Below, one piece after another: positions 1,278-7,781 of a DNA stretch of 8,105 nucleotides. Source of the stretch: Prevotella sp. UBA3208 (GTDB taxonomy: Bacteria > Bacteroidota > Bacteroidia > Bacteroidales > Bacteroidaceae); contig DEWO01000060.1 in the NCBI GenBank assembly GCA_002363695.1, positions 1,830-9,934 on the forward strand, in the 5' to 3' direction. The notes beneath the pieces are model-generated. The model searched no databases. It was not told where the DNA came from and saw nothing but the letters and a program-made list of their open reading frames with translations. Each line of letters opens with the position of its first letter. Position 1 is the first letter of the stretch. Both the position numbers and the translations under genes were made by a program.

Positions 1278-1369
1278 CTTCAATTTTTCAATTCTTCAAT
1301 TCTTAAACGTTCTTCAATTCTTCAATTCTTCAATTTTTCAATTTTTAAACGTTCTTCAATTTTTCAATT
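1278..1369. repeat. Octamer repeat tract YTTCAATT with two YTTAAACGTT units
   Basis: Nine copies of CTTCAATT or TTTCAATT occur in the order 3, decamer (1302-1311), 4, decamer (1344-1353), 2. The stop codon and last codons of the 794-aa primase gene (1345-1369) lie inside the tract, and the rest forms the 76-bp spacer to the DUF5675 gene. A second tract lies at 4263-4310 in the same orientation. Confidence 0.9.
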
Positions 1370-3729
1370 TTCATAAAACTGTCATCTGTCATCTGTAAGA
1401 GGTAGCCGCGATGTACCCACTGCGAGAGCATATTGCGGGTGCTGCGCGTGTCCATGCCGTTGGCCTGACGGATGAGGTTTGCATCATGCAGGGTAAACTC
1501 ATCGGGCAGCAGTTCCAACAGATTGCGAGGGCCACGGTGACCAGTCTGCTCCTCGCTGCTGCGATTAGCCTGTTCGATGGCCTCGCCGAAAAACAGCATC
1601 TTGCACCAGAGGTCGTACTGCAACGACCAGCGCACAAAGTCTTCTATCTCGCGCCCCCACTTGTAGTCGTTGCAGATATAGAGCACGCAGGCCTTCAGGT
1701 AGGCTATCACGTTGGCACGAAACGACAGGTTCTCATATACTCTCGATTGTGACAGCCGGGCAAACTCGGCGCACTCATCCTTCAGCCGCTTGGCCAGCCG
1801 GAATGCCTGTGGGCAGTCTACGATGCCTGATGCACGACAGAGGCGGTCGATGTATGGGCGCAGCTCTTCGTCGAAGGCAGCATCGTACGTGCCATACACG
1901 GGCATGTCGGCTCCGATTTCGCGCTCAGGGATGGTGCAGAAGTTAATGCGCGAGATGGGCCCGTCGGTCAGCACCTTCGCAAAGTATTTCTGTCCCTTCT
2001 GGATGGTCGTGGCGGCATTCCAGTTGAATCGGATGCACACCTTCTCGGTCACGCTTTGCACGCCCACACGCGTCTGACCGTAACGGTTGTCTGGGTCGAA
2101 CGAGAGGCACATAATCTGAAACTGCTGCGAACCGCGGGCCGAACCGCGCAGGGCGTCGAACTGGTCTATCTCGTTCATCTTCGTGTAGAGAAAGTGCTCG
2201 TCGGCCTCGGCCATGCGCATGACGAAGGCGGGATTGGTCATGTCGGGGTCTACCTCTTGGATGACCAGCCCTTCGGGACGCTGACGCTTGTCCTTGTTCG
2301 AGCCCTTCGAGTTGACCTCCTTCTTCCACTCGGCCTCCCTACGAAGGTTCTCGGCATCGCGCAGGCGGATGTCGGCCATGATGTGGTTGATGGGTTGCGA
2401 GATACAGTCCTTACCGGCACCCGTACCAGCCATCAGCACGTTCATGAACGTAGCCTCGTGCATCACATTGTCGATATACGGGAAGCGCACCTTCCACAGA
2501 TGGGCACCCAGCGAGGGAAAGATAGCGTGGGCCACTGCCGGCCGGTAGATGTCGGGCGTGCGCGACAGCAGTAGCTGAACCACCTTCGGCAGACGCTTCG
2601 GCATTTCTGGCGGCAATGCTGGTTCGTGGTTATTGGTTAATGGTTCATGATTATTTTTGTCCGCAGGGCAACCCTGAACCTTGAACCCTGAACCTTGAAC
2701 CATCTTCAGCGACTTGGCCAGCACCCGGCGCTGAAACTGCGACATCTTCTGGCTGGGGTCGTAGTACTTCGAGTAGAAGTCGTCCACCAGCGTCTGGATG
2801 TTCTTGTCCTGCCAGTTCTGCGCCATGCGCACCTGCAGCACCCCGAGGAGTTCCTCCTTCGTCAGCAGCTGCGTGGCTCCCACGGAGAGGATGCTCTTCA
2901 GCGCCTCGTGCCTGTGCCCCTCCACAATGAGCACGTCGGGTGTCAGCTCGGCCTCCTTCATGCACGAATCGAAAATGTAGAGGGCTCGCGCATCGGCTTT
3001 CATCGGTTCATGGCTCACGGTGGATGGTTCAGGGTTATTCTGCGCAGGGCAACCATTAACCTTTACCCCTTCACCCTTAACCAGCGGCCTTCCGTCCACA
3101 TCGAGTCCCCGCTGGAGATAAGCCTCGCGGCGCTCCTCTAACTCCTCGCCCTCGATGGGCTCCAGCCAGTGCTCAGAGCGAAACACCTCCTGGTCGATAC
3201 CCGTCACGTAGATGTAGCGCTCGGGGGTCCAGCACGACGAGTCAAGCAGCTCGTCGGCATCGAAGCCCAACTCCTCGCAGAACGCCCGCTGTGCTTCCTC
3301 GATGGTCATGCCCTTGGGGATGCGGATGTAGATGTGCCCTTTGTCGCGAGCCGAACGTGCCAGTCGCAGCACCCCGTCGTGCCACTCCGACATCTCGTCC
3401 TTGTTCACCTCCAAAGCCTTCGTAAACGCCCCGCGCACCAACTTTGGGCTGTCAATATCTACGCACGTCATAAAGGTGAACGCCTCGGGGATGATAGAGT
3501 CCTGCGCCCGATGGTTGTCACGGAACCGCGTGTAGTGCGGGCAGATGAAGGGCAGCCAGTCCTTCTTCTCCTCACGTCCGGCGCGGATGTCTGCCACGTC
3601 CCGGCGAAGCCACTCCTGGCGGAGCAGCTCGTCAAGCTGCTCCGAGGTGGCGGTCTCAGCATAGCCCCGATTGTTCTTCCCGCGGTCGGCGAAATGCTTC
3701 GTGTTCAGTGCTATGAGTCTGCTTACCAT
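1345..3729 (-). CDS. BT4734/VirE-type primase with DUF3987-like ATPase domain (794 aa)
   Basis: The N-terminal part resembles the BT4734/VirE N-terminal primase-like domain. It has CVDIDSP (89-95, giving the DxD pair D91/D93), GHIYIRIPKG (131-140) and SCWTPERYIYVT (165-176), which matches the position of the family's C.D.SR..FVS block. The C-terminal half carries a Walker A-like AGTGAGKDC (434-442), a possible Walker B NEID (519-522) and DGPISRINF (589-597), as in DUF3987-type helicase/ATPases. The likely role is replication or primase-helicase function of a mobile element. Linkers at 216-242 and 343-370 are encoded by two copies of a hairpin-like repeat. The last residues (QMTDDSFM, then KIEKLKNV) come from heptamer and octamer repeats. 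The ATG overlaps the upstream 144-aa gene stop by 7 bp (ATGGTAA), so translation is probably coupled. Domain identity is fairly sure; catalytic activity is unproven. Confidence 0.82.
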   Translation of the reverse strand: MVSRLIALNTKHFADRGKNNRGYAETATSEQLDELLRQEWLRRDVADIRAGREEKKDWLPFICPHYTRFRDNHRAQDSIIPEAFTFMTCVDIDSPKLVRGAFTKALEVNKDEMSEWHDGVLRLARSARDKGHIYIRIPKGMTIEEAQRAFCEELGFDADELLDSSCWTPERYIYVTGIDQEVFRSEHWLEPIEGEELEERREAYLQRGLDVDGRPLVKGEGVKVNGCPAQNNPEPSTVSHEPMKADARALYIFDSCMKEAELTPDVLIVEGHRHEALKSILSVGATQLLTKEELLGVLQVRMAQNWQDKNIQTLVDDFYSKYYDPSQKMSQFQRRVLAKSLKMVQGSGFKVQGCPADKNNHEPLTNNHEPALPPEMPKRLPKVVQLLLSRTPDIYRPAVAHAIFPSLGAHLWKVRFPYIDNVMHEATFMNVLMAGTGAGKDCISQPINHIMADIRLRDAENLRREAEWKKEVNSKGSNKDKRQRPEGLVIQEVDPDMTNPAFVMRMAEADEHFLYTKMNEIDQFDALRGSARGSQQFQIMCLSFDPDNRYGQTRVGVQSVTEKVCIRFNWNAATTIQKGQKYFAKVLTDGPISRINFCTIPEREIGADMPVYGTYDAAFDEELRPYIDRLCRASGIVDCPQAFRLAKRLKDECAEFARLSQSRVYENLSFRANVIAYLKACVLYICNDYKWGREIEDFVRWSLQYDLWCKMLFFGEAIEQANRSSEEQTGHRGPRNLLELLPDEFTLHDANLIRQANGMDTRSTRNMLSQWVHRGYLLQMTDDSFMKIEKLKNV
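1375..1396. repeat. TGTCATC heptamer repeat inside primase 3' end
   Basis: Three heptamer-phased ACTGTCATCTG-type units give a 22-bp string that is identical to 7679-7700 and to the inverted arm in 7574-7595. Here it is coding on the minus strand and yields the residues QMTDDSF. Confidence 0.85.
2620..2701. repeat. In-frame hairpin-like element, copy A (82 bp)
   Basis: Five TGGTTNN-type heptamers (2620-2654), a 15-base core ending CGCAGGGC (2655-2669), then four AACCYTG heptamers plus AACC (2670-2701). The GGTT units on one side can pair with the AACC units on the other with 7-bp phasing. On the minus strand it encodes primase residues 343-370, beginning MVQGSGFKVQGCPADKNN. Confidence 0.85.
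3004..3082. repeat. In-frame hairpin-like element, copy B (79 bp)
   Basis: Same layout as the copy at 2620-2701: five heptamers of GGTTCA type (3004-3038), a 12-base core ending CGCAGGGC (3039-3050), four degenerate AACCNTT heptamers plus AACC (3051-3082). The core is exactly 3 bases shorter, so the frame is kept. It encodes residues 216-242, beginning LVKGEGVKVNGCPAQNN. Its heptamers have diverged more than in the other copy. Confidence 0.82.
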
Positions 3730-4262: not shown

Positions 4263-4310
4263 CTTCAATTCTTCAATTTTTCAATTCTTCAATTTTTCAA
4301 TTCTTCAATT
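4263..4310. repeat. Octamer repeat tract YTTCAATT, second copy
   Basis: Six consecutive octamers (CTTCAATT/TTTCAATT) without the decamer unit, same orientation as the tract at 1278-1369. It lies at the 3' end of the antirepressor remnant, so the two tracts bracket the 144-aa and primase genes. Confidence 0.9.
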
Positions 4311-4493
4311 TTCTTTTCAGGAACTCAACGCCTGCCTGCGTCCACACCTGGTAGCGTCGCGATAACCCAGTGCCTTGGCCAGGTCGGAGGCCACGAACAT
4401 CGGCTCGCCCTCGGCGCCCATCACAACCCGCACTGCCATACCAAGCTGTCGGTTCTCGAACTTCATCGTCTGATTCTTTGTCTTTACCATCAT
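4297..4493 (-). pseudogene. BRO-N (phage antirepressor-like) remnant with frameshift
   Basis: From ATG 4493 a 58-codon frame ends at TGA 4319-4317. It contains MKFENRQLGMAVRVVMGAEG, then EPMFVASDLAKALGYRD, the hallmark start of the BRO-N domain found in phage antirepressors (known pattern: F....VRVV..DGEPWFVA.DVA..LGY). After GYRDAT the frame turns into low-quality sequence. Another frame over the same bases reads YQVWTQAGVEFLKRKLKN to TGA 4299-4297, which looks like an authentic C-terminal end, so an internal deletion that broke the frame is likely. A full BRO protein is usually over 100 residues. Short 58-aa expression remains possible since the promoter at 4548-4555 precedes it. The downstream end dissolves into octamer repeats. 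Confidence 0.65.
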
Positions 4494-7540: not shown

Positions 7541-7570
7541 CTTTAGGAGCGAAAACTGCAAAAAATGGCG

Positions 7571-7703
7571 ATGACAGATGACAGATGACAGTTTTTTGAA
7601 TTTGGGAGTATAGAGGGTATAGTATTATATATATTATAATATATATAATACTATATATAAAGGCGCACTGATTTTCAGAAAACTGTCATCTGTCATCTGT
7701 CAT
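7571..7703. repeat. Nested inverted repeat: 25-bp TGTCATC arms around a 38-bp perfect palindrome
   Basis: Arms 7571-7595 and 7679-7703 are perfect reverse complements made of 7-bp units (GATGACA / TGTCATC), with one further degenerate unit to 7710. Nearly concentric inside is a perfect 38-bp palindrome at 7618-7655, each half containing AGTATTATATATATTA. The palindrome centre (7636.5) and the arm centre (7637) agree within a base. It lies between the divergent 101-aa and HU genes, about 79 bp before the HU -33 element. Confidence 0.92.
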
Positions 7704-7781
7704 TTGTCATCGACCCGTTCGGGCTGCTGAAACGAATTCGCGCAGTTTGTGCTGAAAATCGGCTGAATTGGAGGGGCAAAA

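Follow-up and report, generated by a model that had tools for sequence, protein, structure and literature searches.

In-frame hairpin elements with arms of 7-bp repeats in Prevotella-like Bacteroidales

The stretch of DNA analyzed here (the window) comprises 8,105 nucleotides from Prevotella sp. UBA3208 and contains, within a single open reading frame (ORF), two hairpin-like elements whose arms are made of 7-bp units. A first-pass annotation, made from the sequence alone, had called attention to this pair, and our analysis confirms the observation of two in-frame heptamer hairpin copies. They are probably decayed copies of a dispersed, non-autonomous hairpin in which arms of 7-bp units flank a short core. 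Our best reading is that heptamer-armed hairpins may work like the Rickettsia palindromic elements (RPE) while forming a separate group in Bacteroidales. Close relatives have many such hairpins, some between genes and others in frame in essential genes, that of DNA ligase among them; repetitive DNA appears in this way to be supplying new stretches of protein. The ORF and the two copies are positioned as follows.

1345-3729, minus strand: host ORF of 794 aa from the ORF scan, carrying both window copies
2621-2701, in the minus-strand ORF: copy at linker site B, 81 bp, [GGTTNNN]5-core-[AACCNNN]4-AACC
3005-3082, in the minus-strand ORF: copy at linker site A, 78 bp, same architecture as 2621-2701, eroded

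Each copy starts one base later than first annotated and measures 81 or 78 bp rather than 82 or 79. The 3-bp difference between them does reside in the core (14 nt at site B, 11 nt at site A, both ending in CGCAGGGC), and both copies are open within one ORF, as had been claimed, the variable NNN positions leaving no in-frame stop. Completed to whole codons, the sense strand of the site B copy encodes 27 residues, MVQGSGFKVQGCPADKNNHEPLTNNHE; that of the site A copy encodes 26, LVKGEGVKVNGCPAQNNPEPSTVSHE. Scored against a template of five GGTT and five AACC at 7-bp spacing (maximum 40), the site B copy reaches 39, with GGTT in four of five left heptamers (the fifth is GATT) and AACC at all five right positions. 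The site A copy reaches 36, its left heptamers beginning GGTT, GGCT, GGTG, GGTT and GGTT and its right positions reading AACC, AACC, ACCC, CACC and AACC. The five GGTT and four AACC plus AACC ascribed to both copies are thus a common architecture, present only with mismatches. The gene was shuffled 2000 times by codon and the window 500 times by mononucleotide, with a top score of 26 in either set; together with the reversed-pattern control given below, these shuffles rule out a chance origin of the architecture. Folding bore out the hairpin for one copy of the two. The site B copy folds better than shuffles as RNA (z -2.5 for the sense strand, -3.4 for the other) and as sense-strand DNA (z -3.0). 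The site A copy folds no better than shuffles (RNA z 0.14 and 0.04, DNA z 0.85), and is therefore a hairpin by architecture only.

The host gene had been labeled a primase, a name that is unconfirmed: searches of the ORF against Pfam (up to E 10) and NCBIfam (E 0.001) found no family. It contains the stretch AGTGAGKD, which we take to be Walker A-like. Each linker lies within a low-confidence stretch of the predicted structure of the protein (residues 208-240 and 345-370, two of ten such stretches), consistent with the proposal that they fall between domains; with a mean predicted local distance difference test score (pLDDT) of 53.7, the model is too poor to use and lends this proposal little weight.

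The homologue set comprises 79 loci, many from genomes named Prevotella or Prevotellaceae. One of them (L001), from a roe deer rumen metagenome-assembled genome (MAG; G001), is 99% identical and carries both elements. It is the only one of 26 aligned homologues with a clear GGTT-heptamer element at site A, and one of two in 28, along with L018, at site B; a partial GGTT element at site B of L020 falls outside that count. Other repeats are found in the host-gene linkers of some relatives, namely a GGGGACAGTCCC palindrome (L008, L013), CTCCC palindromes (L021, L023, L044), GAGAAAT heptamers (L013, L021) and GAAGAAT heptamers (L011), while the remaining homologues have a plain linker at the sites. 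The alignment of the gene used 19 of 24 sequences, L006, L007, L009, L023 and L002, which has two stops, being left out. Fixed ancestral linkers are ruled out, as most aligned homologues are without GGTT elements at sites A and B. Nor are similar elements missing elsewhere: the closest genome has them between genes and, in frame, within genes. The comparison originally drawn with RPE, but in Bacteroidales and made of heptamers, is supported.

A family that we call F1 illustrates how widely such elements are spread. Its architecture, derived from 11 copies found by core pattern with heptamer flanks and from 13 aligned sequences, is [GGTTAGN]5-AGAGGATTG..GGTATTCT-[CTAACCN]5. A covariance model (R1; 97 positions, 33 pairs), built with the window left out, finds matches at E<=1e-3 in 48 of 139 congeneric genomes, seven of which have at least 28 (palindromes may count on both strands), and at E<=1e-6 in 30 of 201 genomes drawn from the family. 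In each of six genomes, a 2.3-kb query with two F1 copies matched 48-57 stretches, counts that include flanking genes and in which one element may match more than once. In the F1 hairpin 94.2% of cells are paired, and changes on both sides, which preserve pairing of the arms, number 21 against 7.6 in shuffles. The cores, 25-55 nt long and conserved at their ends, turn up at unrelated places across many genomes. F1 is small, multicopy (tens of matches in several genomes), non-autonomous and bounded by terminal inverted repeats, like a miniature inverted-repeat transposable element (MITE). R1 also matches the site B copy of the window, at 2612-2709, with 21.8 bits and an E-value of 0.0013; palindromic structure is common to this copy and F1.

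F1 occurs between genes and also in V-type ATPase (V-ATPase) subunit I, LigA and UvrA. The genes for V-ATPase subunit I in G001 and UvrA in G133 contain near-identical in-frame cores, with one difference in about 45 nt. The V-ATPase element segment RLEARGKRSENTFGSEASIPNNPLTSNHSPLTT recurs at 34 other places in the 24 genomes searched: 27 of these contain stops and seven are stop-free in open frames of 261-970 aa, one of the seven being identified as UvrA in G133 (above the TIGR00630 cut-off). Sharing extends to different sites of one protein. Among LigA proteins (the best 120 of 8000 scored, with the site I expression matching 119 and the site II expression 104), P0053 has closely similar elements at sites I and II, and a GARSKEQ-type element occupies site I of P0001 and site II of both P0082 and P0088. 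As 7 is not divisible by 3, an array runs through all three frames, so that coding copies use or acquire stop-free variants of the unit. Among those of the V-ATPase copy are GGCAAGA, GGTAAGA and GGTCAGA; GGTTAGA and CTAACC hold stop triplets. In LigA (L138) and L147, the F1 core is flanked by GGCAAGG arms, and the TAG of GGTTAGA is absent. In genes, selection keeps the elements in frame and open.

Comparison of orthologous sites reveals the same positions with and without elements. From one relative to the next, the linkers of LigA, PurL and V-ATPase contain different repeat families or no repeat at all (families were named by eye), and all compared sequences keep the frame there. The two LigA sites, of which we take site I to precede the zinc finger, are in frame in all 30 loci, the best 30 of the 136 matching genomes. 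Plain forms usually measure 75-78 nt (site I) and 87 nt (site II), filled forms reach 162 and 192 nt, and the occupants are of heptamer or CTCCC-type families in different species, or there are none. With repeat rows counted once per genome, the PurL linkers are in frame in 20 of 20 genomes (29 rows) and the V-ATPase linker, 81-180 nt long, in 23 of 23 (26 rows). PurL site 1 is 63-66 nt in 16 of the 20 genomes and 132-153 nt, with differing elements, in G001, G099, G045 and G016; in G095 apparently only part of the G099 element is kept. PurL site 2 is 54-75 nt in 13 genomes and 138-186 nt in seven. Stop triplets were met outside the compared linkers in the PurL matches of G058 and G100 and the LigA matches of G117 and G142. 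C-rich palindromes of the CTCCCCCTTTGGGGGAG type also lie in frame in linkers, at LigA site I (L160-L162) and PurL site 1 (L256-L258).

Two orthologous intergenic sites show the same turnover: some genomes have F1, others have repeats of the CCTAGGAAA type or the AACGACC type, and G084 (24 nt) and G095 (2 nt) have almost nothing. In place of F1, L330 and L331 carry arrays of a CCTAGGAAA(N) unit of roughly 10 nt at intergenic sites e1 and e2, and heptamer number varies among orthologous F1 copies. At site e2, L325 and L333 have a short insert, TTTCCGCCTGCGCCTAAGCGAAGAA, nested in the 3' arm of F1, an element within an element.

The elements are set against a general excess of period-7 repeats. 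The G001 sample covers 0.92 Mb of about 3.1 Mb (contigs C1-C49 without C35, several partial, plus C80, picked for holding an element) and contains 139 degenerate arrays of period 7, compared with 3, 25, 41 and 36 at periods 6, 8, 9 and 14; with L001 added, the counts at periods 7, 6, 8, 9 and 14 are 140, 3, 28, 41 and 37. Exact arrays in the 79 loci and the window number 100 at period 7 and 11, 23 and 12 at periods 6, 8 and 9. Two genomes whose records are not labelled MAG agree: G008 (400 kb) has 26 period-7 arrays against 1, 2 and 9 at periods 6, 8 and 9, and G005 (90 kb) has 14 against 0, 0 and 1. No array was found in the 11 kb of short contigs from G006. An artefact of MAG assembly is ruled out by the bias in these two genomes and by LigA proteins with the same linkers, which stem from many separate contigs. 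Many period-7 arrays are inverted pairs around a core: pairs of one unit no more than 130 nt apart number 23 at period 7 and 0, 4 and 7 at periods 6, 8 and 9 when inverted, and 10, 2, 8 and 9 at periods 7, 6, 8 and 9 when direct. The GGTT/AACC hairpin itself, sought as GGTTNNNx3-gap-AACCNNNx3 along lines suggested with the first-pass annotation, occurs in 14 of the 139 congeneric genomes and its reversed control in none.

Placement was judged with a simple longest-ORF scheme rather than a gene caller. ORFs cover 89% of the G001 sample, and 38 of its 139 period-7 arrays lie inside ORFs of at least 100 aa, 12 at ORF edges and 89 between; the arrays are depleted in genes, yet frequent there. Twenty-nine elements were placed in the same way (26 from G001 contigs, two in L001 and one in the window; a weak 27th G001 pair, L123 8332-8502, was left out): 11 are inside ORFs of at least 190 aa and 18 are spanned by no ORF of 60 aa. 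Host genes whose best NCBIfam match exceeds the curated cut-off encode LigA, with two elements, and QueA. V-ATPase subunit I, PurL (a partial protein) and a relative of carboxynorspermidine synthase fall below the cut-off, an FAD-oxidoreductase-like host has weak matches only, and the labels sigma-70-like and WbqC-like were given without a search.

The window contains further repeats of this general kind:

7570-7711, no strand assigned: second heptamer-armed inverted repeat, (GATGACA)3 ... (CTGTCAT)4, with an AT-palindromic core
1367-1396, no strand assigned: solo half-element ATTTTCATAAAACTGTCATCTGTCATCTGT in the last codons of the host ORF, 97% identical to 7671-7700

The inverted repeat at 7570-7711, made of ATGACAG units around its AT-rich core, has no spanning ORF of at least 60 aa. 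Octamer arrays, TTCAATT(C/T), are present at 1276-1373 and 4263-4312, one of them overlapping the 3' end of the host ORF. The region is bordered by the 3' end of a gene (1-696) matching part of the carbamoyl-phosphate synthase large subunit.

Several observations weigh against a dispersed hairpin as the source of the window copies, or restrict what may be claimed for it. For the site A copy R1 yields no more than 11.8 bits (E 1.5); the E-values of covariance models of this sort are rough. Above chance level, the core type of the window was found in no gene but the host gene: its pattern occurs in two of 139 genomes, at both G001 copies and at one place in G098; its reversed control has five matches, which puts the G098 match at chance level. 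A widespread family defined by the window core itself is rejected, since in these genomes the pattern does not exceed its reversed control. The compensatory changes of F1 come mostly from two GGCAAGG-armed copies and perhaps reflect few events. No target-site duplication was seen by eye at the compared sites, and filled LigA, PurL and V-ATPase sites usually replace the old linker rather than simply interrupting it, so that the mechanism would be insertion followed by deletion, or else replacement. In-frame keeping is not universal: the frame is lost locally in L018 (site A, 91 nt) and L021 (site B, 103 nt), and in G058, which is not one of the 30 loci, the LigA coding sequence is divided between two frames around the LigA sites; moreover, a best-match sample favors intact genes. 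Most genomes examined are MAGs. Finally, no transposase was identified for the elements, a parent transposon having been sought in the 139 genomes through Y1_Tnp only.

One could envision that nothing moves, and that slippage favoring 7-nt units, together with template switching at quasi-palindromes, generates the hairpins locally wherever selection is weak, as in linkers and intergenic DNA. The dominance of period 7 across many different unit sequences would fit, as would the variable heptamer number of orthologous F1 copies and the failure of the window core type to exceed chance elsewhere. Heptanucleotides are, moreover, given as the commonest repeat category in most genomes of Mrazek 2007, with slippage proposed (via PMC4679880). 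Local mutation alone is nonetheless unlikely in view of the F1 cores, 25-55 nt long with conserved ends, found at unrelated places in many genomes, of the near-identical core in two unrelated genes, and of the closely similar elements at two sites of one protein.

Still less likely, and in our judgment improbable, is that these are repetitive extragenic palindromic (REP) elements mobilised by a REP-associated tyrosine transposase (RAYT, Y1 family). The elements do resemble REP in being short dispersed palindromes with tens of matches per genome. Y1_Tnp, which also covers IS200/IS605, was matched in 62 of the 139 genomes (53 over the cut-off), strongly in F1-rich G025, G036, G089, G095 and G121. 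However, the F1-rich genomes G133 and G145 have no Y1_Tnp match (MAGs may miss genes), those in G001, G016, G099 and G111 are weak and partial, and strong ones occur in genomes without an F1 match, e.g. G010, G011 and G029. Being strong, weak or unmatched in F1-rich genomes and strong without F1, Y1 transposases do not track F1, and no clear link of the elements to RAYT emerged. We know of no description of period-7 arms as a REP feature. REP elements (GTAG/CGTC superfamilies) are short dispersed palindromes, of which some are reported from coding regions (PMC3733652); their described length is 20-40 bp, compared with about 80-130 bp, with heptamer arms, here. That the linkers are functional segments kept for their protein sequence, the DNA repeats being a by-product of a preferred peptide, is scarcely credible: both window linkers encode similar peptides, but close relatives have unrelated peptides at one and the same linker position, pairing is at the DNA level and the same family occurs elsewhere with stops.

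The dispersed hairpin suggests the following course of events. Heptamer-armed elements would have spread in the genomes of Prevotella-like Bacteroidales of the rumen, settling for the most part between genes but in protein linkers as well. A copy landing in a gene would survive only if its length kept the frame and its heptamers avoided in-frame stops; tolerance is thus presumably the reason why in-frame sites are occupied. Slippage would readily alter heptamer number, copies would decay or lose parts, and another family could later occupy the same linker. Period-7 slippage would then account for changes in arm length, and perhaps for the origin of the arms. We infer copying between sites because non-repetitive cores are shared and widely spread; the copies presumably move by transposition or a similar copying process, mobility being deduced from their dispersal. 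More tentatively, and with rather less confidence than we place in the dispersed hairpin itself, it is tempting to speculate that these elements are a superfamily of mobile DNA that is both new and coding-tolerant, that an activity which makes or copies 7-nt repeats has dispersed them, and that they continue to supply the essential proteins of rumen Bacteroidales with new linker sequence, families overwriting one another in succession at the same sites between close species.

The properties described above inspire comparison with several known systems. RPE are dispersed palindromes of about 150 bp, in ten families, reported from Rickettsia both inside and outside genes and in frame in unrelated proteins (PMC10969869, PMC3733652). 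Like RPE, F1 is a single family found both in non-coding DNA and, in frame, in genes unrelated to one another. The elements here differ in size (about 80-130 bp), in their 7-bp-unit arms of several unit types, in their Bacteroidales hosts, and in that different families hold the same linker in different species. Taxonomy and architecture, compared by description and not by sequence, speak against counting them among the RPE.

BrickBuilt is a MITE of Porphyromonas gingivalis, another Bacteroidales species. It contains a tandem repeat of variable number, and is distinguished by a 23-nt unit, by a position that is always intergenic, and by a leader and tail with small inverted-repeat ends (PMC4596501). 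Direct heptanucleotide repeats of TAACTGA are described from Beggiatoaceae, Cyanobacteria and five Bacteroidetes, mostly between genes, with some in ORFs and then mainly at the protein periphery; other heptamer arrays occur in a few Bacteroidetes, and in BOGUAY there are 169 direct-repeat sets of one unit and only one indirect repeat (PMC4679880). The TAACTGA heptamer is also mentioned in Thiomargarita (PMC4853749). These repeats share with the present ones an excess of period-7 tandem arrays, but they are direct and of one unit, whereas here the units are many and often form inverted arms around a core. In-frame palindromes, heptamer direct repeats and a tandem-repeat MITE are thus known already; what appears to be new is the heptamer-armed, in-frame element of Bacteroidales. 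The initial remark that no formal description of such elements was known agrees with our searches of open-access papers, in which we found none, most subscription journals being outside this scope.

These findings place the elements in LigA, PurL, UvrA, QueA and a V-ATPase subunit of a lineage distant from Rickettsia, where many sister species offer filled and empty versions of the same site. Gene calling and alignment are affected in a major rumen group. The system opens the way to direct tests of how repetitive DNA is turned into protein, how fast the elements turn over, what moves them, and why a 7-bp unit, so awkward for coding, is used.

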